Shown piece by piece: positions 2,714 to 50,755 of a stretch of DNA of 53,402 nucleotides; position 1 is the first letter of the stretch; each line of letters opens with the position of its first letter. Source of the DNA: Bacillota bacterium (GTDB lineage Bacteria; Bacillota; UBA994; UBA5500); contig JAKOXL010000022.1 of assembly GCA_029781045.1 (NCBI GenBank), forward strand, positions 1 through 53,402. Direction: 5' to 3'. Both the position numbers and the translations under genes were made by a program. A model generated the notes under the pieces. That model worked only from the letters and a program-made list of their open reading frames with translations. It was not told the origin of the DNA and did not search any database.

Positions 2714-2838
2714 TTTTGCGAAGGAAACCCCTGTTTTTGTGCAGATGCGGCCCATTCGCAAAGTCGGGGCATTTGCATTCTAAACCGATGCCAAACAAAG
2801 CCGGACGCATCGGGGTTTTTACCGCATCAGCGATTGCG
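2714..2838 (+). promoter_or_regulatory. CRISPR leader of the main array
   Basis: AT-rich, and it directly abuts the first repeat on the side opposite the degenerate terminal repeat. It contains the 50-base block shared with 2230-2279. It also contains a hairpin CCGATGC/GCATCGG followed by GGTTTTT at 2785-2820, which looks like an intrinsic terminator ending 18 bases before repeat 1. No clear -35/-10 pair was found between this hairpin and the array. Confidence 0.65.
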
Positions 2839-3692
2839 GTTACACTCCCATTGACTCGTTAGAGAGGACTGAAACTGTCTTTCTGCGTTAGCCCGTTGTA
2901 TTTACGCCACGTTACACTCCCATTGACTCGTTAGAGAGGACTGAAACCCCCTGCTCACCAGCGACTGGATGAGGACTGGCCTGCCCTGTTACACTCCCAT
3001 TGACTCGTTAGAGAGGACTGAAACTTAATCTGTTCATCTTAATACCTCCATGTCGATTTTGGTTACACTCCCATTGACTCGTTAGAGAGGACTGAAACCG
3101 CAGCGCCCGCTTGATGAAAGCCAGACCTTTTCTGAGTTACACTCCCATTGACTCGTTAGAGAGGACTGAAACTTTTTCGCACTCGTTACAACACGTGCCT
3201 GCACAAAGTTACACTCCCATTGACTCGTTAGAGAGGACTGAAACCAAACAGGGTGTTACAACAGCCCTGTTTTTTCCGTGTTACACTCCCATTGACTCGT
3301 TAGAGAGGACTGAAACTTGTGGTGTATCATAGTGGCTTTGGCAACAAACCCTTGATGGTTACACTCCCATTGACTCGTTAGAGAGGACTGAAACATCAAA
3401 GGGCAAAGTACTAGGCAGCGCATAGACGGCGTTACACTCCCATTGACTCGTTAGAGAGGACTGAAACGTTGCCTGCCCACCACATCAGCTACACCTGTTA
3501 TAGTGTTACACTCCCATTGACTCGTTAGAGAGGACTGAAACTGTTACCTGTCGCATGTCTTTTTACTGTTGAGTTTACGGTTACACTCCCATTGACTCGT
3601 TAGAGAGGACTGAAACGAAATTGGTACTGTTTGTATGGTAGTTACAGGTGGATTAGTTAAAACTGCTCTGACCCGTTAGAGGGGACTGTCTG
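2839..3692 (+). CRISPR. CRISPR array, 11 identical 37-bp repeats plus one degenerate terminal repeat, 11 spacers
   Basis: The repeat starts GTTACACTCC and ends GGACTGAAAC. Copies begin at 2839, 2911, 2988, 3062, 3136, 3208, 3280, 3358, 3431, 3505 and 3580; a degenerate twelfth lies at 3656-3692. Spacers are 35 to 41 bases and all differ. The 3' GAAAC end, the leader on the left and the decayed repeat on the right all indicate transcription on the plus strand, away from cas6/cas3. Eleven identical repeats suggest recent upkeep. Spacer 6 (3245-3279) contains AACAGGG/CCCTGTT followed by TTTT, a terminator-like hairpin. No spacer was seen to match elsewhere in the window. Confidence 0.97.
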
Positions 3693-3742
3693 CTGCAATT
3701 GCTGGCAGCATTTTTGGCTGAAGAGTTAGCAAAACAAGAGTG

Positions 3743-3774
3743 CCCCGCTCTTTTGGTGCGGGGGCTTTCGTTTT
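3743..3774 (+). terminator. Terminator in CRISPR trailer
   Basis: CCCCGC/GCGGGG stem followed by CTTTCGTTTT. It lies within the 59-base trailer (3723-3781) shared with the vestigial copy. It would end the pre-crRNA transcript. Confidence 0.6.
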
Positions 3775-3832
3775 AGGTAGCAAAGGACAGGATAAATATA
3801 GGCTATCACTAACAAGTCAAAGAAACTGCGGG

Positions 3833-3870
3833 AAAAACAAAAACACCACAAGGTGAAATCCTTGTGGTGT
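3833..3870 (-). terminator. Terminator of the tRNA operon
   Basis: Perfect 11-bp stem ACACCACAAGG/CCTTGTGGTGT with a 6-base loop, followed on the minus strand by TTTTGTTTTT. It lies 13 bases past the last tRNA. Confidence 0.85.
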
Positions 3871-3882
3871 GTTTTATGCTTA

Positions 3883-3959
3883 TGGTGGGAGCAACAGGGA
3901 TCGAACCTGTGACCTCTACCGTGTCAAGGTAGCGCTCATCCCAACTGAGCTATGCCCCC
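3883..3959 (-). tRNA. tRNA-Val (anticodon GAC)
   Basis: Cloverleaf read on the minus strand. Acceptor GGGGGCA pairs with TGCTCCC, anticodon stem CTACC/GGTAG with loop TTGACAC, T-loop GGTTCGATCC, discriminator A and encoded CCA. Last gene of the cluster. Confidence 0.95.
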
Positions 3960-3977
3960 ATTAATTATTTGCTTACA

Positions 3978-4066
3978 TGGTGCCGAGGACCGGAATCGAA
4001 CCGGTACGAATCTCACGATTCGCGGGATTTTAAGTCCCGTGCGTCTGCCTGTTCCGCCACCTCGGC
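3978..4066 (-). tRNA. tRNA-Leu (anticodon UAA)
   Basis: 89 nt with the long variable arm of a class II tRNA. Anticodon stem CGGGA/TCCCG with loop CTTAAAA; acceptor GCCGAGG/CCTCGGC; CCA encoded. Confidence 0.95.
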
Positions 4067-4078
4067 TCGTTACAAATA

Positions 4079-4153
<75 letters not shown>

Positions 4154-4190
4154 CCGCTAGCCGAACTGGCAAATAGCTATAAAAAATATA

Positions 4191-4265
4191 TGGAGCGGAA
4201 GACGAGATTCGAACTCGCGACCCTCGCCTTGGCAAGGCGATGCTCTACCACTGAGCTACTTCCGC
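4191..4265 (-). tRNA. tRNA-Gly (anticodon GCC)
   Basis: 75 nt. Acceptor GCGGAAG/CTTCCGC, anticodon stem TCGCC/GGCGA with loop TTGCCAA, CCA encoded. Confidence 0.95.
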
Positions 4266-4280
4266 TTGCTAATCAAGGAA

Positions 4281-4356
<76 letters not shown>

Positions 4357-4360
4357 ACGA

Positions 4361-4436
4361 TGGCGGTGCCGAAGGGAATCGAACCCTCGATCTCCGGCGT
4401 GACAGGCCGGCATGTTAACCGCTACACCACGGCACC
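4361..4436 (-). tRNA. tRNA-Asp (anticodon GUC)
   Basis: 76 nt. Acceptor GGTGCCG/CGGCACC, discriminator G as usual for Asp, anticodon loop CTGTCAC, CCA encoded. Confidence 0.95.
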
Positions 4437-4441
4437 GTATA

Positions 4442-4517
4442 TGGTGGGCACAACAGGGCTCGAACCTGTGACCCCCTGCTTGTAAGGCAGGTGCTCTCCC
4501 AGCTGAGCTATGCGCCC
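4442..4517 (-). tRNA. tRNA-Val (anticodon UAC)
   Basis: 76 nt. Acceptor GGGCGCA/TGTGCCC, anticodon stem CCTGC/GCAGG with loop CTTACAA, CCA encoded. First gene after the internal promoter at 4530-4558. Confidence 0.95.
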
Positions 4518-4529
4518 GTGCAGTTATCA

Positions 4530-4558
4530 ATTATACTTGAAAATCTTCGTCTGGTCAA
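4530..4558 (-). promoter_or_regulatory. Sigma-A promoter of the seven-tRNA operon
   Basis: On the minus strand, TTGACC, 17 bases, TATAAT, ending 12 bases before tRNA-Val(UAC). Near-consensus spacing and hexamers suit a strong stable-RNA promoter. Confidence 0.85.
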
Positions 4559-4658
4559 CTGCGTTATTAGCTGCGCGTAACTGTTACAAACAGGGGCGCA
4601 GAAATTACTATAACACGGATCGAGCCAGTTGTAAATGGCAATTACTTGGTATTAAAGA

Positions 4659-4733
4659 TGGTACGCCCGAGAGGAATCGAACCTCCGCCTCCAGATCCGG
4701 AGTCTGGTGCTCTATCCACTGAGCTACGGGCGT
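4659..4733 (-). tRNA. tRNA-Arg (anticodon CCG)
   Basis: 75 nt. Acceptor ACGCCCG/CGGGCGT, anticodon stem CCAGA/TCTGG with loop CTCCGGA, CCA encoded. It is 141 bases from the next tRNA and has its own promoter. Confidence 0.95.
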
Positions 4734-4748
4734 ATAACATCCTTTGTT

Positions 4749-4777
4749 ATTTTAGCGGAAAACAACGCAAGATGCAA
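4749..4777 (-). promoter_or_regulatory. Promoter of tRNA-Arg
   Basis: Minus strand TTGCAT, 17 bases, TAAAAT, ending 15 bases upstream of the tRNA. Confidence 0.65.
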
Positions 4778-4821
4778 GGCACATGCGGCTCGCCAAATGG
4801 CCATAGCTATAAATTGCCAAG

Positions 4822-6222
4822 TTAACTGAGCTGATGCACCAGTTCCTTAAACTTACGGCCGCGCTCTTCAAAGTCTTTGAACATATCGAAGCTGGCGCAT
4901 GCTGGCGACAATACCACGGCGCTGCCAGGCCTCGCCTGTTCTTTAGCCCAGAGCAATGCTTCTTTTAAAGATGTGAACTGTTGCATGGGCAAGCTGGTGC
5001 CTTGAGCTGCCAGCTCTTCATGAACAGCGGCAGCAATAGCTGGTGCTGTTTGCCCGATCAAAGCTAAGGCATCGACACGTCCCACAACAGCCTTGGCCAG
5101 AGGCTCGAAAGGAATCTTTTTATCATAGCCGCCAGCAATCAGCACGATAGGATAAGGTAATGCCGCTAAACCGGCGATGGTGCGGGAAGGTGAACTGGCG
5201 ATGGAATCGTTGTAATACCGCACACCATCTAGTTCGCGCACCAATTCCAGTCGATGCTCCACTCCGGCGAAGCTAGTGGCTACTTGCCGGATAGCACTTA
5301 ACTTAGCACCTTTTGCATAGGCCACCATGGCCGCAGCCATCACATTTTCTACGTTATGATTGCCCAGCAGTTTAAGCTCATTGGTGGCACACAAAACTTC
5401 TTCTTGCTGCTTTCCACGTAGAACGATTTGACCATTGCGCAAGAAAGCGCCAACAGCCACTTCCTCTTGCCGACTGAAGTAGTAGACCTGACCTTTTGTT
5501 AGCGGGGCTAACTCTTTAGTTAAAGCGTTATCCCAGTTTAGGACAGCGATTTCGTTATGATCTTGAGTGCGCAAAATATTGGCTTTAGCCTGTACATATT
5601 CGTCAAAGGAAGGGTGGTAGTCCAAATGATTAGGGCTAAGATTGGTGATCACTGCCGCCTGCGGGCTTTCACTCAAAGTCATAAGTTGAAAGCTGCTCAG
5701 CTCCAAGACAATCTCGGCCGTGTCAGGGATATGTAGTACTTGTTCAATCAAGGAATTACCAATATTCCCTCCCAGATAGACCTTTCGTCCGTCGGCCTTC
5801 AACATTTCACTAATCAAAGTGGTGGTAGTGGTCTTGCCATCACTGCCAGTTACAGCGGTGATGGGAGCCGCAGCTAAGGCAAACACCAACTCTATCTCGC
5901 TGGACAGCCATGCTCCTCGCTTTACCGCTGCCTGCAATTCTGGCAGATCGGGCCGCATAAAGGGTGTGCGGAAAAGCACTTGGCAATCATCCAAGTGGGC
6001 GAGATAATCCTTTCCTAAGCGCAGTTCTACTGGGATTTCGGTTAGTTCTGCTAAGACCTCGGCCAGCTGGTCCTCTTCCTTGCGGTCACAACCGACTATC
6101 TGACAACCCAGTCCGTGCAGAAAGCGAATCAAGGGTACTCCACTGCGCAGACCTAGGCCAAGCACTCCTACCTTCTTACCCTTCAATTCCTCGATAACTC
6201 GCTGCTGTTTATCAGTGAGCAT
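4822..6222 (-). CDS. murD: UDP-N-acetylmuramoyl-L-alanine--D-glutamate ligase
   Basis: A cytoplasmic Mur ligase that adds D-Glu to UDP-MurNAc-L-Ala in peptidoglycan synthesis. The 466 residues give full family length. An N-terminal Rossmann segment (KVGVLGLGLRSG) is followed by the ATP loop VTGSDGKTTTT, then ELSSFQL, NLSPNHLDYH and the C-terminal NDSIASSPSRTIAGL block, which are the standard Mur landmarks. AGGAGGGG lies 6 bases before the ATG. It stands alone here, without the rest of a dcw cluster. The only close same-strand neighbour is the PspC gene upstream, from which a weak hairpin separates it. Confidence 0.96.
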   Translation of the reverse strand: MLTDKQQRVIEELKGKKVGVLGLGLRSGVPLIRFLHGLGCQIVGCDRKEEDQLAEVLAELTEIPVELRLGKDYLAHLDDCQVLFRTPFMRPDLPELQAAVKRGAWLSSEIELVFALAAAPITAVTGSDGKTTTTTLISEMLKADGRKVYLGGNIGNSLIEQVLHIPDTAEIVLELSSFQLMTLSESPQAAVITNLSPNHLDYHPSFDEYVQAKANILRTQDHNEIAVLNWDNALTKELAPLTKGQVYYFSRQEEVAVGAFLRNGQIVLRGKQQEEVLCATNELKLLGNHNVENVMAAAMVAYAKGAKLSAIRQVATSFAGVEHRLELVRELDGVRYYNDSIASSPSRTIAGLAALPYPIVLIAGGYDKKIPFEPLAKAVVGRVDALALIGQTAPAIAAAVHEELAAQGTSLPMQQFTSLKEALLWAKEQARPGSAVVLSPACASFDMFKDFEERGRKFKELVHQLS

Positions 6223-6258
6223 GACTGCCCCTCCTTTTATCTAGTCTCCAGTACCGTC

Positions 6259-6288
6259 AAAGGCTGCCCCTCTGGCGGAGCAGCCTTT
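6259..6288 (-). terminator. Weak hairpin between the PspC gene and murD
   Basis: Nine-bp stem AAAGGCTGC/GCAGCCTTT with a 12-base loop. There is little U-tract on the minus strand, so termination may be partial. Confidence 0.4.
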
Positions 6289-6312
6289 TGAACCTCTATA
6301 GCCAAGTTAAGT

Positions 6313-6507
6313 CTATTCCGGCTCCAATGGTATGATTACGGCTGCCACAACGTATGCTAGTACTCCCGTACCATAGATGATTACGGCGAAAGCCCATAGC
6401 AGGCGGACAATAGTTACATCAACGCCGAAATAGTCGGCCAAACCGCCGCAAACGCCGGCAATACTCCTAACTCGCCGCGAACGATATAGCCTTTTGCTTG
6501 ACTGCAT
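6313..6507 (-). CDS. Small PspC-domain membrane protein
   Basis: A 64-residue protein consisting of one PspC domain: basic N-terminus KRLYRSRRVRS, then IAGVCGGLADYFGVD, which is the family signature, and one hydrophobic segment (LLWAFAVIIYGTGVLAYVVA) leading to VIIPLEPE. The start at 6507 is chosen because GGAGGAGGTGGGGG directly precedes it; an upstream in-frame start at 6585 would add a glycine run with no domain meaning. PspC proteins are linked to envelope stress in enterobacteria. Stand-alone copies in Firmicutes are mostly uncharacterised. Confidence 0.85.
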   Translation of the reverse strand: MQSSKRLYRSRRVRSIAGVCGGLADYFGVDVTIVRLLWAFAVIIYGTGVLAYVVAAVIIPLEPE

Positions 6508-6550
6508 TCCCCCACCTCCTCCACCTACTGCCATATAATTATGCAATCCA

Positions 6551-6582
6551 GCAAACACCCACCACAGGCAGGTGGGTGCTTT
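6551..6582 (-). terminator. Terminator after glmL
   Basis: Minus-strand stem CACCCACC/GGTGGGTG followed by TTTGCTGG, placed 10 bases beyond the glmL stop. The U-tract is short. Confidence 0.5.
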
Positions 6583-6591
6583 CACTATATT

Positions 6592-7965
6592 TTACGCAGC
6601 AGGTAACGGCCGTAGTGTCTGCTGCAAGAGCTGCAGAGCACTTTTCGGGTGGGATGCGGCCAAAAGCCCGGCCGCGAATAGCACATAATCGGCGTCTAAC
6701 ATGAAGTTGGCTTCCACTGGTTTCATTAACTGTAATTCTCCAGGTTGTTGCAGTGCTCCTGCCAAGATATAACCGGGGTTGGGGCTAAATTTTAGCACTC
6801 CCCCAATACCAATTATCTGCTGGAGAGAGCGCAGATCCTTTCCCCGCAGCAGGTAGCTACGCCCTTGCGGCGTGGCAACAACCTCTACTTGCCCTACGTG
6901 TCGATTCACCGCCAGTTGTACACAGGCTCTAGCCAGCAATTGCTCTTGCTGGCGTTCTGTCTCATTGCTGGGCATCCAGGTGGGTTCAGAAACGGTGGCA
7001 GCAAACTGGGCCCAGTTCACTTGAGGCAGGTTCAGATCCTTGACCAAGCGGGCCATGAGGGGACCGGCCGCGCTGATGGCACCGCTGGCACTGCTACGCA
7101 TGCCTATGTCGGCTTCAACGGTGCGATAGGTAGGTGGCGGCATCAGGCCCACACTCTGCATGGTGTCATCATTGGGATAACCAGGTGCTATGGAGTAGAC
7201 ATCGGTGGTGGCGCCGCCTAAATCCACGGCCAGCAGATCGCCTTTCTCAGCGGCGTAGAGCTCTAGCCCAGCCAACACGGCCGCCGGCGTAGGCATAACC
7301 ACCTCACCCAGCATGGCCTCCAGTTCCTGTAGGCCTTTGGCCAGTACAATCCGTTCCAAGAACAAATCCCGAATGGCTTGCCGGGCCCCATCCACCTCTA
7401 AACGGCCCAAGCGGGGTAGCACGTTAGCGGCTACACGGCAGGTATAGTTGGCTGCGCGCAAGATGGCAGCAGCCTCGTCGGCCACAACTCGGTTACCGGC
7501 AATGACAACGGCTGTATCTAGCTGAATGGTGGCCAGCGCCTGCGCATTGGCTAATAGGGTTGCTTCATCACCACCATCGGTGCCGCCGGCCAATAGAATA
7601 ATGTCGGGAGCCAGCTGGCTAATCTCCTGTAAATCGCTGGACAGGAGACGATGGCCATAGACCTTAAGCACTTTTGCTCCCGCGCCTAGGGCTGCCATGC
7701 GGGCCGCTTCTCCTGTGAGTTCTGGCACCAGGCCGATGGCCACTAGGCGCAGACCGCCGGCGGCACTGCTGGCCGCTCGGCGCAGACCAAAACTAATGCC
7801 CAGCGGCAATTGTTGTTTCAGCTTCTGCCAGGCGTGATCCACACCAAGCCGGACGTCTCGTGGCGTAGTGAAGACCGCACTCGTACCCAGGAGCGACCCG
7901 TCATCTAGATCAACAGCACACAGCTTTGTGAAGGTGCTGCCAATATCGGCAAGAAGGGCGTACAT
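6592..7965 (-). CDS. glmL: GlmL/MutL-family reactivating ATPase for a B12 mutase
   Basis: A 457-residue ASKHA-fold protein. The N-terminus LLADIGSTFTKLCAVDL is the phosphate-1 loop; LLAGGTDGGDE and LLAVDLGGATTDVYSI are the later nucleotide-binding motifs, all typical of the methylaspartate-mutase accessory protein family. Such proteins lie beside adenosylcobalamin-dependent mutases and aminomutases and are thought to reactivate or chaperone them. Here it follows the mutase gene by 2 bases (7965 to 7968), so the two are cotranscribed. It is the best evidence in the operon that the neighbour is a true B12 mutase and not a methyltransferase. Confidence 0.88.
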   Translation of the reverse strand: MYALLADIGSTFTKLCAVDLDDGSLLGTSAVFTTPRDVRLGVDHAWQKLKQQLPLGISFGLRRAASSAAGGLRLVAIGLVPELTGEAARMAALGAGAKVLKVYGHRLLSSDLQEISQLAPDIILLAGGTDGGDEATLLANAQALATIQLDTAVVIAGNRVVADEAAAILRAANYTCRVAANVLPRLGRLEVDGARQAIRDLFLERIVLAKGLQELEAMLGEVVMPTPAAVLAGLELYAAEKGDLLAVDLGGATTDVYSIAPGYPNDDTMQSVGLMPPPTYRTVEADIGMRSSASGAISAAGPLMARLVKDLNLPQVNWAQFAATVSEPTWMPSNETERQQEQLLARACVQLAVNRHVGQVEVVATPQGRSYLLRGKDLRSLQQIIGIGGVLKFSPNPGYILAGALQQPGELQLMKPVEANFMLDADYVLFAAGLLAASHPKSALQLLQQTLRPLPAA

Positions 7966-7967
7966 AT

Positions 7968-9605
7968 CTACCTTAACGCCAACCTTTGTAACCGCTCTCT
8001 CTCGCTGAGCGGGCGACCGGTGTCTGGATCTACGGCCACACAGGCCCCCTCAATTAGTCGGGTCTGCAACCGCCCCTTGGCCACATTGCTGCCCGCCAGA
8101 TGGGGGGCATCCAAAATACCTGCTCGAATGGCAGCTACTAAGACATCGGGGTCACTGCCTAAGGGTTTGCTGGGGTCACCTAGATGCCGAATGGCGGTTA
8201 AGAGCTCTTCTGCTTCAGCCAACAACTGGTTCTTGCGAGCGATAATGACCGGATCATGCTGGATTTCCGGCAGGCCGTCGAGGGCGTTGTGCAGCATGCC
8301 AGCCACAATCTGGCAACTCTCAATCACATCTTGAGCGGTGGCCACATGATCGGCCTCGCAGAAGCCAACCACGTGGATAATATCGGGTTTCAATGAAAGG
8401 GCCAAGTGCATCGACGATGCCAGCTGGCCTTTAGCCTTGTTCAAGTTAGGATCAAAGCTCGCCAAGCCACTGCGGACCTGGGTATAGCTCTGGAAGTTCT
8501 CATCATGCAATGAAGAAATGAGCTCCTTCTTAGCCAACATTTTGGCTAAGTCTTTGTTATACCAAGTACCATTGGGAGTATTGAACATGTACTGGGCCAC
8601 ATAGTGTTTAACGCCCTGATGCTTGGCAAAGGCCGCAGCCAAGTAGGCCATGACAACGGCAATAGTGTCGCTGGCCTCGCGTAGGCTCCAATGGTGGGCC
8701 TCATTTACTTCCAAGGGGATATCCCGCTGACCATACCAGGCGATGGCCGCCAGGTTTTCTTTAATGGCAGTGGCTAGCGGCCGATTGGAGCGGCCATCTA
8801 GCTCGCTGTACCAACAAAGAGGAACGGCGCCCCAGGCGTTATGCAAAGTCTCAGTAGCCAGTTCAGCCCACTGGATTAGGTCACGGGTGCCAGCGTAAAT
8901 GCGCAGGAGGGGGAAATTGCCGGCTCGGCTAGCTTCATATAGCGCCTCCAAGTCTTCCCGCTTGCGCAGTGGTACACCGCCAGCCCCAGTCTGCTTTGGG
9001 TCCATCTCCTCCGGGCGAAAGAAGCTGGCTTGGGCGTTCTGGTCGGGGCCAATGGATATGATATCGAGCACTTTGGCCTCAGCTATTTGCCTGATGCCCG
9101 CAATGGTAGCTTCTAGGCTGGGCAAACCGAAATGATGGCGCAACAAGGGATAGGGCCGTTTGGCGGCCAAGCGCGGCAACAACTTATCGGGGTAACGCTC
9201 CTCCAAGGGTCGCTGATCACGCCCTTGCAGAAAGGCAATGATTTCGTCTACACCCTCCAAGCCAGAGAAGCAACGTCGAAAGATGCCGGTCTTAGTGGCT
9301 GCTTCCGCTGCCGGCGGAGTACCACCAAAGATCAACTCTATATCTCCCAGGCCCACCTCCAGGAGCGCATTGTGTAACTCCCGGGCCAAGCTGGGAACCA
9401 GATCGGGAGTAAGGCGATAGCTAACCGCAAGAATGTCGGGCCTATACTCCTGCGCGGCCTGCACTATGCCCAACAGACCGACGGCAGGCCCCAGGAACTC
9501 GGTATCGTAGCCCTGTTCTTCTGCTAGGCGCAGAAAACGTAAGGTCCCGGCCACATGGACATCGTGTCCCAGAGGAGCACCTAAAATCTTGCGTTTCTTG
9601 CTCAT
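7968..9605 (-). CDS. Fused adenosylcobalamin-dependent mutase (B12 domain plus TIM barrel), substrate unknown
   Basis: A 545-residue protein. Residues 1-130 form a B12-binding Rossmann domain with DVHVAG (the DxHxxG cobalt-ligand motif), a SYRLTPD segment and a closing FGGTPP. The rest, with GPDQNAQASFF, an IYAGTRDL strand and EVNEAHHW, resembles the TIM-barrel catalytic subunit of glutamate mutase (GlmE) without being a clear orthologue. In glutamate mutase the two parts are separate subunits (GlmS, GlmE); here they are one chain with the B12 domain first. The ATG at 9605 overlaps the upstream stop as ATGA, so translation is coupled. An upstream in-frame start at 9695 is rejected because it lies inside the previous gene. 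A carbon-skeleton rearrangement of an amino or hydroxy acid is inferred. Confidence 0.7.
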   Translation of the reverse strand: MSKKRKILGAPLGHDVHVAGTLRFLRLAEEQGYDTEFLGPAVGLLGIVQAAQEYRPDILAVSYRLTPDLVPSLARELHNALLEVGLGDIELIFGGTPPAAEAATKTGIFRRCFSGLEGVDEIIAFLQGRDQRPLEERYPDKLLPRLAAKRPYPLLRHHFGLPSLEATIAGIRQIAEAKVLDIISIGPDQNAQASFFRPEEMDPKQTGAGGVPLRKREDLEALYEASRAGNFPLLRIYAGTRDLIQWAELATETLHNAWGAVPLCWYSELDGRSNRPLATAIKENLAAIAWYGQRDIPLEVNEAHHWSLREASDTIAVVMAYLAAAFAKHQGVKHYVAQYMFNTPNGTWYNKDLAKMLAKKELISSLHDENFQSYTQVRSGLASFDPNLNKAKGQLASSMHLALSLKPDIIHVVGFCEADHVATAQDVIESCQIVAGMLHNALDGLPEIQHDPVIIARKNQLLAEAEELLTAIRHLGDPSKPLGSDPDVLVAAIRAGILDAPHLAGSNVAKGRLQTRLIEGACVAVDPDTGRPLSERERLQRLALR

Positions 9606-43290: not shown

Positions 43291-43297
43291 TACAACA

Positions 43298-43396
43298 TTG
43301 AGGGTGAAGAAGCCTGCCCTGTATGTGGGCACCTGGGGCAGGCGGAGCCAGTGGTGCAACCGATCAATGCTTTGGGTATTGGTCGGCTTTTTTTTT
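43298..43396 (+). promoter_or_regulatory. Cyclic-di-GMP-II riboswitch with terminator
   Basis: GGGCACCTG (43327-43335) and GTGGTGCAACCGATC (43351-43365), joined by a CTGG/CCAG stem, match the conserved core of c-di-GMP-II aptamers as remembered (GGGCACUUG ... GUGCAACCGACC). GCCTGCCC (43312-43319) can pair with GGGCAGGC (43336-43343), as needed for the pseudoknot-type fold. The aptamer's last strand CCGATCAAT (43360-43368) also forms the terminator stem with ATTGGTCGG (43378-43386), followed by nine Ts. Binding should therefore change read-through into the downstream genes for a secreted protein, DUF5305 and the kinase-peptidase. The direction of control is probably ON with ligand but is not proved. 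Confidence 0.7.
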
Positions 43397-43523: not shown

Positions 43524-44395
43524 GTTAAAAGAAAGAGTAAGCGGCGGTTAAAACTCCTATTCCTGGTTTGCGCCATATTGGGGCTAAAACTGCTAAACAT
43601 GGCAGCCAGCTATAGCAGCGCGACCATTTTCGGTCCGGCATCGGTGGGAATAACTGACTCAGCCAATGCGCTAATCGCTATTCGATTACCGCAAGAGGAA
43701 ATTTGCTTCCCTGGAAACCCGATCTCAGGGCAGATAACCAACAACATGGGGCTACCTCTTCACTCATTAACAGCAACCAACGCACTGCTTTCATCCAGCA
43801 GCCTTGCGGCTGGAGGCACTGCCAATTTCGGTTTCAACGCTCCTTCTCGTAGTGGAACTTACACGGGCACAATCGAAGCCCAGTGGACAAACGGCTCAGC
43901 CGTCATCCCCTATTCCGTAGCTGTAAGCATAGTTGACCCGGGTGACTTGGGTGTCAACTGGGATGAGAACGCACAGAAAGTTACTGTCGTGAACAAAAGC
44001 CACCATACCCTCTGGGCACACGTGGGCAATGAGTTGAGGGTGTTAGAGAGTAATCGTTCCACCCAGTTTGAACGGGCAGGAGATAAAACGACTGTAGTTT
44101 TCAGCACAAACGGCAGAGTGACCGCACTTACACCCTTGAAAACATTGATACTCCCTTGCCAACACCTCCGGAAGGGAACTTACAGAACCTGCAAGTCTTT
44201 GCTGATGCCGAATTGCAAGGCGTGGTCAATGAACAAGTCAATATAGCAGATCCTGCATCCGACAGGGGAAAATTACCAGAAGAATTGGAGTCTCAGACTC
44301 CGGCTGAGACAGAAGACAGTCTGGCAGGGCAAGTAGAGACCACAGAAGCAAATGGAAACACCTATACAGAAGTACCGCAGGAAGTAGACTCTTAG
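43524..44395 (+). pseudogene. Secreted protein with SipW-type signal peptide, frame disrupted
   Basis: The frame begins KRKSKRRLKLLFLVCAILG... AASYSSATIFG, a long basic-hydrophobic signal like those cut by SipW peptidases. There is no ATG, GTG or TTG before it: the codon 8 bases after AGGGGGG is GTT (43524). Beta-rich repeats follow (NPISGQITNNMGLPLHSL, GGTANFGFNAPSRSGTYTG). At about 44130 the reading moves to another frame (LENIDTPLPTPPEGNLQNLQ) and ends in an acidic, Glu/Thr-rich tail. The first frame alone gives 43578-44246 and the second 44156-44395. It resembles matrix or surface proteins of TasA/camelysin type in layout, not clearly in sequence. Sequence error or decay is possible. Confidence 0.55.
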
Positions 44396-44472: not shown

Positions 44473-45701
44473 ATGCCCAATGAAACAGCCAATAAATCGC
44501 GAGTTCTGGAGCGCAAGATGAGTAAGCAAAGAAGAATCATGCGGCTAGTGCTTCTGCTATTACCTATTCCCCTTGCTCTCTTGGCCCTGACTTCAATGGT
44601 ATTTGCAATCCAGTCTATAAAGGCACCTCTAGAAATAGAACAGGTAGTAGCTACACAAGTGTTAGAGCAGGAGGTTGTTTTTGACTATACAGCCACCCCC
44701 AGGATCTCTACCCTCTACCCTACTCGCGCACAACTGGGACGACAGACAACATATTTGGTTAATCTCTTAGATCAGTTCACCGTTCATATTAAGGGCCAAG
44801 TGAAAGCCCAACTGACATGAAACTGGAAGGAGCTCATCAAGTAACTATGCGCGTGGAGGCCGGCAACGTCTGGGCCAAAGACTACGTACTTAGCCCGGAA
44901 AAGCCTTTCTCCGGCGTTGGTGAATTTGTGGCTCTGGACCTTTCTCTCGTTTTGCCACTAAGAGATGTTATGAGTTTTGGTGAGCAGGTATCTAAAGAAG
45001 CCGGAGTCGCTACTGGAGTCTACAAGCTTACTCTGTTCCCGTACATGAAGACCAAAACGGTTGGCGATGGCCCGGCGCTTACCAATGAGTTCATGCCTTC
45101 TTTCGCCTTTGAACTATCCGGCCCCCTACTAACTCCCAGAGGAGTACCTCCGCAAGGGAGCTATTACGAAGAGTACGATCCTTCCCAGGATCTAGTTCAA
45201 AGCCACAGCGTTTCTCAGCCGATAATCGAGTTGGTGCCCAATTCCTTTTCTGTACTTGGACGTAGTATACCTGTGCCTACAGCCCGGATACTTAGCACCA
45301 GCGTGACATTGCTTTCCTCTTGTCTGGCCCTTTTCCTGCTGGTAAGCAACAACAAGAACAGGGTCAGGCTGACAGAAGCGGAGCTGATCAAAAAGCGATA
45401 TGGGGGAAGGATTATCGAAGTCAAAGCTGGTTCGCTAGATCTAGGTAAGCAGCGGCTACAATCGGGCAGCTTTCAAGCCCTACTGTCCCTCGCCGATGAG
45501 CGGGATAAATCCATTTTCTACACTGGCCAGATTGACGGGGTGCCCAGCACTAATACCTATTACCTCATCGATGGTGATATAGTCTACTTCTATACAATGC
45601 CTGGAGGCTCTGAGATACAGTGCTGGAATACACCTCTCCCGCCGAGGAAAGGCGGGCCCATCAAGCCTTACGGTTATACCGCTATATATCGTGGGCCCTG
45701 A
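44473..45701 (+). CDS. DUF5305-family membrane protein, split by a frame change
   Basis: Two frames cover one domain. The first (44473-44820) has a signal/anchor (RLVLLLLPIPLALLALTSMVFA) and FDYTATPRISTLYPTRAQLG, and ends at TGA. The second starts at ATG 44817 (ATGA overlap) and continues with MKLEGAHQVTMRVEAGNVWAKDYVLS, GVYKLTLFPYM, FAFELSGPLLTP, a second membrane helix (RILSTSVTLLSSCLALFLLV), and a cytoplasmic end (YYLIDGDIVYFYTM). The strand pattern runs straight across the junction, so a one-base loss in a single DUF5305 gene is likely; coupled translation of two halves is the alternative. Such proteins commonly sit beside S26B signal peptidases. The last 27 codons overlap the next gene. 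Confidence 0.6.
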
Positions 45702-47848
45702 CTTCGGTCTTGTATCTGCTGGACGTACCGCGCTTCAACCTGAGTGTAGCTCTGGGGGTCGTCATTGCCCTGCTGTTGGCAGGTCATCTAGCCAGCAGGT
45801 TCTATCAACGCCTAGATCTAACCAGGAATCTGGCAGTGACCTTAATTCTTGTAGAGACCATCGGAATCGCCCTGTTACTTATTCCTACCGGTGGCTTAAG
45901 TAGCCCTTTCATCTGGTACTCCCTTAACCCCATACTCATGGCAGCCCTCATGTTGGCAATACCCTATTGCTGGTTGGTGCTGACTGTCTTCTTAGGAGCA
46001 GCCACCTTGGGGAGTGTACTGCTGTTTGGCGAGTCACTGCAGGAAGTATGGGCTGGTAGAAGTTGGGCAATTGCCGCCTTCATTATGATCACCGCTGGAG
46101 CATCGGTGTTTTCCTACTTGATGGCCGCCCTGCGCAGAGCCTACACCCAGCTGGATGCCATGCACAGACAAACGCAGCACCTGCTGGTGGTGCAGGAGCA
46201 AAACCGGATAGCCAATGAGATCCATGATGGGGTCTCCCAGCACCTGTTCAGCATTGTCTGTGCTTTGCACAGTCTGCGACAACGGAACTCCCATATTCAG
46301 GACAGGGAGACGCAGGAGCAATTGCAGTTAATAAGCCAGACAGCCACCCGGGCGGCTCAAGAACTGCGAGCCTCCATTTACCGCATCAAACCCAGTGCCA
46401 ATAGTGGTCAAGCCTTCATAACGGCCTTAGCCGCCCAGTTGGACGATATAGCTAAACTCAATGATGTAAGAATCAATCTAGAAACTACAGGTAATGAAGA
46501 TGCGGTCAGTCCAGCACTTCGGCAAGCAATAACACGCATTGTCAAAGAAGCAGTGGCTAACGCCATTAGACACGGCCGCTGCTCTACGGTTGACATTGAA
46601 CTGGCTATGCAGCCTGGTAGCCTAGCGCCAGAAATTCAGGATGATGGAATAGGTTTTGATCCGCAAAGCAGGAAGCATGAAGGCCTGGGCCTTGGCAACA
46701 TGGTTAGCTTGGCAGCCAACTTCAATGGAAGCTTGGAAGTCAGGAGTGCACCTGAAGAAGGCACCTACATTTCAATGGTAATTATTGTATTGCTGGCGGC
46801 CATTGGTACTGGCATCAGTGGACGACCATTTCTACTCTCGGTTATTCGCTCCTACAGTATGTACCCGCTACTCTCGCGCGGAGACCTGGTTTTGATAGCC
46901 CCAGTAGGTTCTCAACAGTCCCTTCACACAGGGGATATTGTTCTGTTTAAGACAGAGAAGGGAAACTTGGCTAACAAGGGGTGGGTGATTCATCGTATTG
47001 TGGGTGGCAATGAGGTGGATGGTTATATTACCCAAGGAGACAACAATGGGGAGACCGACCAGGAAAACGGGGGAGCCCCTCCTATCAAACGGGACTGGAT
47101 AGCCAGCCGAGCCCTGACCATCGCAGGTGTGCCCATTAAAGTGCCTTTGCTAGGATACATCCCCCTCTGGGTAGAGCAGTTTCAGAAAAATACCTATTCT
47201 TTCCCCCTCATTGGCCTAGGTTTGGCTCTTATTCTGGCCGCCAGCGAGCTGGTACCAGATGGAAAGCGAAGACGATCTAAACGGGAGTCAAAACTGGACA
47301 AGGCCATGTTGTATGTGTTTGGGGGAACAACTTTAAGCCTGGTCTTAACCGCATCCATGCTAGCTGCCAGTCAAAATCTGACGCTGTTATACGAGGTTTC
47401 GGATACCAGTAGAGGGATACTTATGGGCAGCGACGTAGGCATTTTACCAATAGGTGAAGAGATAGAGCGGCCTCTAGTAGAACTGAGCAACAAGACTTTC
47501 TTGCCCGTAGTCAGCACCTGCACCACCAAGGATAGGCAGATAAGTTTTAGCCATGACTATCTCTATTTACTGAAGGAACAGAAACTGGAGGCCAGCTTCA
47601 AGGTCAGTGCGCAGACGCCGGGCAAGTATGAAAGCAAAGTGTGGGTAGGCATGTTCTTCCCCTTCCTCCCCGCTCCCGTTATTTACTGGCTGGCCAAGCG
47701 CAGTTACTGGTTGGCTCTGTTCGTAGTGGCGCTGATACCGGCCCTGCCCATCATCAGCTATCCCCTTTGGGATAGTACTTTGCGCCGACAAGCTGGGCGC
47801 GAACTGTCCAGAAGCTGGCGGCGTTGGCGGGCAAAACTCCCTATCTGA
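45620..47848 (+). CDS. Histidine kinase fused to S26B (SipW-like) signal peptidase
   Basis: 742 residues in one frame. Residues 1-185: about five to six membrane helices. Residues about 190-260: HisKA_3 phosphoacceptor QNRIANEIHDGVSQHLFSIV. Residues about 305-385: ATPase with KEAVANAIRHG (N box), DDGIGFDP (G1) and GLGLGNM (G2), ending GTYIS. Then a helix (MVIIVLLAAIGTGISG) leads into a signal peptidase: LSVIRSYSMYPLLSRGDLV (catalytic Ser), WVIHRIVGG (His), GYITQGDNN, and two or three more helices. The kinase-to-peptidase order is topologically sound. No response regulator is adjacent. ATG 46775 could start the peptidase alone, and TAA in the +1 frame at 46779 suggests a one-base change may have joined two genes. 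Confidence 0.75.
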   Translation: MLEYTSPAEERRAHQALRLYRYISWALTSVLYLLDVPRFNLSVALGVVIALLLAGHLASRFYQRLDLTRNLAVTLILVETIGIALLLIPTGGLSSPFIWYSLNPILMAALMLAIPYCWLVLTVFLGAATLGSVLLFGESLQEVWAGRSWAIAAFIMITAGASVFSYLMAALRRAYTQLDAMHRQTQHLLVVQEQNRIANEIHDGVSQHLFSIVCALHSLRQRNSHIQDRETQEQLQLISQTATRAAQELRASIYRIKPSANSGQAFITALAAQLDDIAKLNDVRINLETTGNEDAVSPALRQAITRIVKEAVANAIRHGRCSTVDIELAMQPGSLAPEIQDDGIGFDPQSRKHEGLGLGNMVSLAANFNGSLEVRSAPEEGTYISMVIIVLLAAIGTGISGRPFLLSVIRSYSMYPLLSRGDLVLIAPVGSQQSLHTGDIVLFKTEKGNLANKGWVIHRIVGGNEVDGYITQGDNNGETDQENGGAPPIKRDWIASRALTIAGVPIKVPLLGYIPLWVEQFQKNTYSFPLIGLGLALILAASELVPDGKRRRSKRESKLDKAMLYVFGGTTLSLVLTASMLAASQNLTLLYEVSDTSRGILMGSDVGILPIGEEIERPLVELSNKTFLPVVSTCTTKDRQISFSHDYLYLLKEQKLEASFKVSAQTPGKYESKVWVGMFFPFLPAPVIYWLAKRSYWLALFVVALIPALPIISYPLWDSTLRRQAGRELSRSWRRWRAKLPI

Positions 47849-47964: not shown

Positions 47965-49302
47965 ATGTTTGATAAGGAAGGGCTCGTAGAGATTGCCCGG
48001 CGGGCTCTCTCTTATAGCCAAGCTGAACAAACCCAAGTAAGTGTCATCGCCGAAACCATGGATCTAACCCGTTTTAACAACAATGAGATACATCAGAGCC
48101 TCTCGCGGGATAACTTAACTTTGATGGTTAAGGTTATTGACAACAGCCGCATAGGCGTTGCTAGCACCAACAAGATAACTGCCAGAGATATTGAGGCCGC
48201 TGTTGATCAGGCCCGTTTCTTCGCCAGCCTGCAACCGCCCAATGAAGACTTGGCCGACCTACCTACTCCCCGCCCTATTCCCTCAACTCCAAAGCTGGAC
48301 TACAGCGTTGTCTTGACTACGCCGGAGCAAAGGGCAGCTTGGGCCCAGCGTACAATTGAGATAGCACGTAGTGCCAATCTATCTTCATCGGGCACCATAT
48401 CCTTTGGCATTGAGCAACATCTCATCCTCAATTCCCAGGGTGTGGAAGCCTATCATGAAACGGCCAGCGGTTTCTATCGTACGATTATGAACAACGGGGA
48501 TATCACCGGCTATGCGGACCGCATTATCAAGAACGCAGACGATTTCCAAGTGGAGCCAGTGGCGAACGAGGCCAGAGAGAAAGCCACTCTTTTTAACCAG
48601 TCAATAGATATAACTCCCGACGAATATGTGACCATTTTTGAACCGGTGGCGGTGGCTGACTTGCTGCGCTTTTTGGCCTACACCAGCTTTGGTGCAGCGG
48701 CCAAGCAAGAAGGTCGCAGTTTCATGGCCACCCAAATGGGGCAGCAGGTGATGAGTCCGTGTGTTTCTATATGGGATGATGCCTTAGATCCGGAGTGTAT
48801 TATCCAACCTTTTGATATCGAAGGGGTTCCCAAGCAAAAGGTGCGGCTGATCGACCGAGGAGTTGCTGTAGGGGTGGTATATGATACCCAAACCGCCCAT
48901 AAGGAGAGCAAGCTTTCTACAGGCCATGCCAGTAGCGGTTATTACGGAGCCACACCAAGACACATGTTAATGGCTCCAGGCGATATGCCCCTAGAGGAGA
49001 TGATTCGCACAACTAAACGCGGTATTTTGGTAACCCGCTTTCACTATACTCACTGCCCCGATCCCCTGCGGGTAGTGGCCACCGGCACCACTCGCGATGG
49101 CACCTTCCTTATTGAAGATGGTCAGATTGTGGCCCGCTTAAAGAACCTACGCTTTACCGACAGTGTGCTTACCGCTTTCTCCCGGGTTTCGGGCATTTCT
49201 CCCGACCGCCGTCTCGCCCGGGACTGGTGGTCGACCTATACTTCCGTGTTACCCGCCATCCGGGTTGACGGTTTCAATTTCACTGGCGCTACTACATTCT
49301 AA
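47965..49302 (+). CDS. TldD/PmbA-family protein (PmbA/TldE-like partner)
   Basis: 445 residues. TRFNNNEIHQSLSRDNLTL... VKVIDNSRIGVAS, SSGTISFGIEQHLILNSQGVEA, then IEGVPKQKVRLIDRGVAVGVVYDT and MLMAPGDMPLEEMIRTTKRGILVTRFHY. It lacks an HExxxH motif, as expected for the non-catalytic partner of a TldD/TldE pair. It lies 13 bases before tldD. The pair is a zinc protease that degrades or trims unfolded peptides. The ribosome site is weak. Confidence 0.88.
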   Translation: MFDKEGLVEIARRALSYSQAEQTQVSVIAETMDLTRFNNNEIHQSLSRDNLTLMVKVIDNSRIGVASTNKITARDIEAAVDQARFFASLQPPNEDLADLPTPRPIPSTPKLDYSVVLTTPEQRAAWAQRTIEIARSANLSSSGTISFGIEQHLILNSQGVEAYHETASGFYRTIMNNGDITGYADRIIKNADDFQVEPVANEAREKATLFNQSIDITPDEYVTIFEPVAVADLLRFLAYTSFGAAAKQEGRSFMATQMGQQVMSPCVSIWDDALDPECIIQPFDIEGVPKQKVRLIDRGVAVGVVYDTQTAHKESKLSTGHASSGYYGATPRHMLMAPGDMPLEEMIRTTKRGILVTRFHYTHCPDPLRVVATGTTRDGTFLIEDGQIVARLKNLRFTDSVLTAFSRVSGISPDRRLARDWWSTYTSVLPAIRVDGFNFTGATTF

Positions 49303-49315
49303 GGAGGATTACCGA

Positions 49316-50755
49316 ATGCGCGATATTCTCAGCAAAGGGCTGGATTTAGCCACCAAACTGGGAGCTAGCTATGCTGACATCCGCGTGACCAAACGGGAAA
49401 CGGAGCAAATAACAGCTAAGAATGGCCATATTGAGAACCTGACACGGGGCGGAGATGAAGGTTTTGGAGTGCGAGTGCTCAAGAATGGGGCCTGGGGATT
49501 TGCGGCCACCCCCATCCTACGAGAGGGTGATCTGGAGAGAAAAATCGAAGCGGTGGTGCAAAAAGCGGTAGCCATCGCACAAGCCGCCAGCCGTGTAAAT
49601 CGCCGTCCGGTAGAGCTCGCCCCAGTAGAAAGTGTGCGCACCACTTACAAGACCCCTGCCAAGATCGATCCTTTCGCTATGCCACTGGAACGGAAACTGC
49701 AGGATTTGACGGAAATAACCAAGGCTCTGGCTTGTCTACCGGAGATTCGCGTTACCACTGCCAGTCTGCGCCTGTTCAAAGAGCAGAAGACTTTTGCCAG
49801 TACGGAAGGCAGTCACATAGAGCAATCCATTTTGCAAAGCGGTATTGCTGCCAGTGCTTTGGCTACCGGCAAGGGGCGGGCCGAACGGCGCTCATTTGCC
49901 GACCATGGAACCGGTGGCTATGAGCTGGTTGAAAACATGAAAGTGCGGGAACAGGCTCCTCGTATTGCGGGGGAAGCCGTTGCCTTGCTCAGTGCCGACA
50001 ACTGTCCGGTGGGAGAAAACACTCTTATTTTAGGAGGACACCAGATGGCTCTGCAGTTACATGAGTCGACGGGACATCCAACGGAACTGGACCGGGCCCT
50101 AGGCAGTGAAGCCACCTTTGCTGGTACCAGCTTTCTCTTGCCAGAAATGCTCAATAAGTACCGCTACGGATCAGAAGTAGTTAACATAGATATGGATGCC
50201 ACTATTCCAGGTGGTTTGGGCACCTTTGCCTACGACGACGAGGGTGTGCCAGCCCAATGTACTCCTCTGATTGAGGCCGGCATTTTTAGAAACTACACAA
50301 CCTCCCGTGAAACGGCCCCTCAATTTGGTCAGACCAGCAATGGAGCTATGCTGGCCGACGGTTGGAGCAACTTCCCGCTAATTCGCATGACTAATGTTTC
50401 TCTGTGCCCAGGCGATTGGACTTTGGAAGAAATAATCAAGGACACAAAGCGAGGCGTGCTCATGGATGGGCAGAAGAGTTGGAGTCTTGATGACAAGCGC
50501 GTGAACTTCCATTTTGGCTGTGAAATAGGCTGGGAAATTGAAAACGGAGAGATAACCCGCTTGTTACGCAACAACGCTTACACCGATCTTACGCCCCATT
50601 TCTGGAACTCCTGCGATGCGGTGGCAAGCAAAGAATACTGGCATTGTTGGGGGTTACCGTCATGTGCTAAGGGCGAGCCGGTGCAAATTGCTAATGTGGG
50701 CCACGGGGCAGCACCAGCCCGCTTCCGTGGCATTCGTATCGGTGTTGAGGCCTAA
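49316..50755 (+). CDS. tldD: TldD-family zinc metalloprotease
   Basis: 479 residues. The catalytic ALQLHESTGHPTELDRALGSEA contains the HExxxH motif; it is followed by IPGGLGTFAYDDEGVPAQ and TTSRETAPQFGQTSNGAMLADGW. N-terminal DIRVTKRETEQITAKNG is typical of the family. ATG 49316 follows AAGGAGG; a longer in-frame reading from 49163 lies inside the partner gene. It forms the active subunit of the TldD/TldE-type protease with its neighbour. Confidence 0.93.
   Translation: MRDILSKGLDLATKLGASYADIRVTKRETEQITAKNGHIENLTRGGDEGFGVRVLKNGAWGFAATPILREGDLERKIEAVVQKAVAIAQAASRVNRRPVELAPVESVRTTYKTPAKIDPFAMPLERKLQDLTEITKALACLPEIRVTTASLRLFKEQKTFASTEGSHIEQSILQSGIAASALATGKGRAERRSFADHGTGGYELVENMKVREQAPRIAGEAVALLSADNCPVGENTLILGGHQMALQLHESTGHPTELDRALGSEATFAGTSFLLPEMLNKYRYGSEVVNIDMDATIPGGLGTFAYDDEGVPAQCTPLIEAGIFRNYTTSRETAPQFGQTSNGAMLADGWSNFPLIRMTNVSLCPGDWTLEEIIKDTKRGVLMDGQKSWSLDDKRVNFHFGCEIGWEIENGEITRLLRNNAYTDLTPHFWNSCDAVASKEYWHCWGLPSCAKGEPVQIANVGHGAAPARFRGIRIGVEA

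Follow-up and report, generated by a model that had tools for sequence, protein, structure and literature searches.

The window analyzed here, a 53,402-nucleotide stretch of a Bacillota genome (assembly GCA_029781045.1, contig JAKOXL010000022.1; genome G000 below), contains a single open reading frame in which a NarL-type histidine kinase is followed by an S26B/SipW-like signal peptidase. This fused ORF is probably the by-product of an approximately 1.7-kb deletion in an eroding gene cassette and not an evolved sensor-peptidase. Five observations argue for this reading: (i) in a member of the same genus (G001) the cassette is intact and the two genes are separate, (ii) the segment that lies between them there and is missing here amounts to 1,677 bp and is divisible by three, (iii) the intervening genes are absent from G000, with no orthologue of either the response regulator or the secreted protein, (iv) neighboring genes of the window cassette are broken, and (v) a second congener (G002) lacks the cassette. 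Against it stand the open frames and intact catalytic motifs of both halves, relative-rate counts without a clear excess of change, an intact riboswitch, and a topology that would permit the fused order.

Domain content of the fused ORF

The ORF extends on the plus strand from a GTG codon at 45620 to a TGA ending at 47848 and remains open throughout its 742 codons in the assembly, as the preliminary description of this DNA had stated. The kinase half (45620 to 46774) begins with four hydrophobic segments within residues 1 to 180, detected by a simple hydropathy scan, and continues with the Pfam domains HisKA_3 (PF07730; residues 193 to 260, E value of 1e-12, 48.7 bits against a cutoff of 24) and HATPase_c (PF02518; residues 302 to 387, E value of 3e-12, 47.5 bits against a cutoff of 26.4). 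In the alignment, the phospho-acceptor H202 is invariant, and N314, DDGIGFD, GLGLGNM, and G357 are all present; by domains and motifs, this half is predicted to be a NarL-type (HisKA_3/HATPase_c) sensor histidine kinase. The remainder (46775 to 47848, plus strand) matches the NCBIfam signal peptidase I model TIGR02228 at residues 384 to 486 with 68.6 to 72 bits (cutoff of 51.85), and inspection predicts a catalytic pair of serine (SYSMYP, Ser413) and histidine (VIHR, His458), not lysine, with both motifs kept in the G001 peptidase. These features identify it, at the level of sequence, as an S26B/SipW-like signal peptidase I. It shares the S26B assignment by TIGR02228 and the Ser/His motifs with Bacillus subtilis SipW, but at 36.5 bits against a cutoff of 190 it falls short of the model for Bacillus SipW proper (NF046067), and it carries a long C-terminal membrane extension.

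An intact cassette in a congener

At the matching chromosomal place, bounded as in the window by an OKR decarboxylase gene on the left and FMN_bind and ApbE genes on the right, G001 (locus L032) carries six separate intact ORFs and no fusion. Behind a cyclic di-GMP riboswitch, these encode a secreted protein, a DUF5305 protein, a NarL-type kinase (L032:6449-7630; 393 amino acids, 67% identical to the window kinase half), its cognate NarL/LuxR response regulator (L032:7645-8265; 206 amino acids), a second secreted protein on the minus strand (L032:8409-8981; 190 amino acids), and a SipW-like peptidase (L032:9236-10345; 369 amino acids, 70% identical to the window peptidase half). The G001 decarboxylase gene itself appears to be frameshifted near residue 46 (L032:2200-2400) relative to those of the window and G002. 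Two separate genes in a sister genome, the outcome that the preliminary description itself had set against a real fusion, are thus what G001 holds.

The response regulator and secreted-protein genes occupy a gap of 1.6 kb between the G001 kinase and peptidase genes, and both fall wholly within the stretch that alignments place as missing from the window (G001 positions 7601 to 9277, a net 1,677 bp counted in the sister); the corresponding junction lies at 46772 to 46777 on the plus strand of the window. The rival offered in the preliminary description, a one-base indel or a single lost stop codon joining neighboring genes, drew on the position of the junction at the end of a kinase and the start of a peptidase, and also on a TAA in the +1 frame, which is present at 46779 to 46781 as described. 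This explanation was rejected and is highly improbable, since in G001 the two genes are not adjacent, with some 1.68 kb and two genes between them, and since the join has cut about 8 codons from the kinase C terminus and about 14 from the peptidase N terminus.

Elsewhere in G000, we found no orthologue of either missing gene, and relocation within the genome was dropped as an explanation because neither occurs in the assembly; the best regulator match there is 39% identical and lies beside another kinase on contig 40. A cognate response regulator adjoining the kinase, an arrangement that is usual for NarL-type kinases, if not strictly defining, is accordingly present in G001 and absent from G000. 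Direct repeats at the two breakpoints, sought in the G001 sequence, were not detected, and a repeat-mediated deletion was discarded on this ground. The fusion might also have been created by assembly or binning, through the joining of two stretches separated by 1.7 kb in the cell or the collapse of strain variants, and the division of the assembly into 57 contigs leaves room for such an error. We consider this rather unlikely, and less likely than cassette erosion, as the missing genes occur nowhere else in the assembly, G001 contains no long direct repeat able to mislead an assembler across both points, and independent damage within the same cassette points to real erosion. The deletion thus appears, from the sequences compared, to be real in the organism.

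Damage to the remainder of the window cassette

The gene for the upstream secreted protein (43528 to 44395, plus strand; 51% identity to the intact 295-amino-acid G001 gene) is damaged twice, with GTT in place of the GTG start codon and a frameshift near 44125 to 44135 that precedes the acidic tail. It aligns with its sister from the first residues despite the GTT, and the next in-frame start, TTG at 43578, would shorten the signal peptide. The adjoining DUF5305 membrane-protein gene (PF17231; 44473 to 45701, plus strand), an intact 384-amino-acid ORF in G001, carries a frameshift at about 44817 and lacks its stop codon, so that it continues for 25 codons into the kinase gene. As no split domains were found by Pfam in 20 other ORFs scanned in the window, the damage looks local to the cassette, and the fused protein, standing among damaged operon genes, is better explained as a by-product of gene loss than as a new kind of sensor. 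The second congener, G002, has its decarboxylase and FMN_bind genes side by side and lacks the entire cassette; the genus therefore displays all three cassette states, intact in G001, damaged in the window, and absent in G002.

Other features of the window include a TldD/PmbA metallopeptidase pair (47965 to 50755) between the peptidase and FMN_bind genes. Neither G001 nor G002 has the pair at the corresponding position, and the closest match found, in G003, shows 39% identity. A Cas6 gene lies at 1055 to 2080 on the minus strand, and beyond it eight tRNA genes are clustered at 3886 to 4733 on the same strand.

The control region, to which the preliminary description of the fusion makes no reference, is preserved. 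A cyclic di-GMP-II riboswitch aptamer heads the cassette (43291 to 43374, plus strand; RF01786, 80.2 bits, E value of 1e-16); the window copy is intact and scores higher than that of G001 (L032:4025-4109; 61.2 bits). An intrinsic terminator with a 12-pair stem and a T run (43360 to 43386, plus strand) shares the 3' strand of the aptamer closing stem and folds at -15.9 kcal/mol (z score of -3.7), and an equivalent hairpin in G001 also uses this strand. Since terminator and closing stem draw on the same strand, binding of cyclic di-GMP should favor read-through, and the riboswitch is expected to be an on-switch.

The junction and the prospects of the fused protein

The junction, GTYIS followed by MVIIVLL, spans codons 381 to 392. 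The preliminary description had placed it at the exact boundary between kinase and peptidase; the location is right, but the fit is inexact, with approximately 8 to 9 kinase and 14 peptidase codons gone. In the alignment to G001, the sister kinase runs on past window codon 384 for about 8 to 9 codons; on the other side, 14 N-terminal residues of the sister peptidase have no counterpart, the window match beginning at about its codon 15. Likewise, of a complete kinase with H, N, G1, and G2 boxes preceding a complete S26B peptidase, the motifs and the order stand, while completeness does not hold at the join, where both ends are clipped.

A hydrophobic segment of 19 residues (381 to 399; mean hydropathy of 2.07) survives at the junction and is the only membrane segment available to the peptidase N terminus. 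The AlphaFold model reaches high confidence in the ATPase domain alone, its peptidase half having no aligned relatives and being unusable. It assigns residues 381 to 389 to the final ATPase strand with a pLDDT of about 94, leaving some 10 hydrophobic residues for the peptidase anchor. Because this strand and the membrane segment claim the same residues, one half of the fused protein is likely to be impaired, to judge from the model. A topology with a cytosolic ATPase domain, one segment, and the peptidase outside would be feasible.

Substitution was assessed with relative-rate counts in place of dN/dS; third positions are heavily diverged between window and sister. For the kinase, the unique changes in window and sister numbered 24:13 and 22:19 with two outgroups, which suggests no clear excess in the window, and for the peptidase they numbered 4:16, with fewer changes in the window copy. 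Given this lack of excess in either half, any decay is recent.

These data also bear on the possibility that the fused ORF encodes a functional sensor-peptidase, either with the kinase coupling sensing to the processing of the secreted protein through its ATPase domain, which would be linked without a break to the peptidase membrane anchor, or as a tolerated fusion in which both halves work. The full-length ORF with every motif kept, the absence of excess substitution, the intact riboswitch upstream, and the hydrophobic segment that persists at the junction are consistent with it, as are fusions of receiver domains to S26B peptidases in other genera, which indicate that two-component domains do join SipW-type peptidases. 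We nevertheless regard it as unlikely: the partner response regulator is gone, the upstream secreted-protein and DUF5305 genes are broken, the modeled ATPase strand and the membrane segment would need the same residues, and the matches listed for 398 genomes of this phylum contained no second example. A search with TIGR04088 also found no SipW-type signal peptide in G000, which is weak evidence, as this short model likewise gives no hits or subthreshold ones on the likely substrates of related cassettes. Least probable in this group is a working single chain of kinase and SipW-type peptidase, controlled by the cyclic di-GMP riboswitch, in which sensing acts directly on export without a regulator; we hold this to be very unlikely. 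The suggestion in the preliminary description that sensing is linked to secreted-protein processing retains its basis in the nearby secreted-protein genes, but a new sensor-peptidase is not the default reading.

Related architectures and known systems

No other kinase-S26B fusion, and hence no homologue with both domains in one chain such as the preliminary description had proposed to seek, was present among the matches listed in a TIGR02228 search of the 398 genomes, and a contig search with the entire fused protein as query returned kinase matches only. Our literature search found no described kinase-signal peptidase fusion, in agreement with the earlier statement that no described protein of this order was known. 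The long S26B frames among those listed that we inspected (two in G194, one each in G311 and G352, and a shorter one in G389) were rejected as further kinase fusions, since their N-terminal domain is a CheY-like receiver and not a kinase; three were scanned with Pfam, two of which reach the Response_reg gathering score and one of which falls below it, and the other two were judged by sequence. Receiver-linker-S26B proteins are encoded in several genera of the phylum (L140:130-2136, L142:1408-2448, L150:1378-3147, and L153:1426-3408), with two copies in L174 (3376 to 5382 and 8869 to 10605) near SipW-type secreted proteins. Like the fused ORF, they place a two-component domain N-terminal to S26B, but this domain is a receiver followed by a linker, whereas the window has a kinase. 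Their occurrence in at least four genomes suggests an apparently maintained architecture. At another locus (L033 of G025, 2794 to 8915), a related kinase of 608 amino acids with an inserted domain and a regulator lie beside a 402-amino-acid S26B peptidase that has a membrane region at its N terminus, and genes for SipW-substrate-type secreted proteins adjoin them.

In the Clostridium perfringens sipW-bsaABCRSD locus, secreted matrix proteins are encoded together with a SipW-type peptidase and with the two-component pair BsaR/BsaS, which is needed for expression of the sipW operon (PMC7395162). By locus content, it resembles the cassette in grouping peptidase, secreted proteins, and two-component pair. 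However, its kinase and peptidase are separate and its gene order is different, whereas the window locus has a deleted regulator gene and a kinase that continues into the peptidase. We infer that the ancestral cassette served in making and processing surface or matrix proteins on the command of cyclic di-GMP and the two-component pair.

The history that we favor, deletion in an eroding cassette, can be set out in four steps: (i) the ancestral state would have been a six-gene cassette behind a cyclic di-GMP riboswitch, as still intact in G001; (ii) a deletion of about 1.7 kb would have removed the response regulator and secreted-protein genes; (iii) the kinase 3' end would thereby have been joined to the 5' part of the SipW-type peptidase gene, in frame by chance, an outcome that a random join yields one time in three and that needs no selection; and (iv) the cassette would now be eroding, with the neighboring secreted-protein and DUF5305 genes also broken. 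We infer that the fused product has lost function or retains it at a reduced level.

To conclude, the window locus is a snapshot of an operon deletion creating an apparently new domain architecture, and it cautions that a single genome is insufficient for calling fusions. The intact sister cassette is of moderate interest in itself, as a SipW-type secretion locus that has a NarL-type two-component pair of its own and stands under the control of a cyclic di-GMP-II riboswitch. If the fusion works, it would be a first example of a signal peptidase coupled directly to a two-component sensor.
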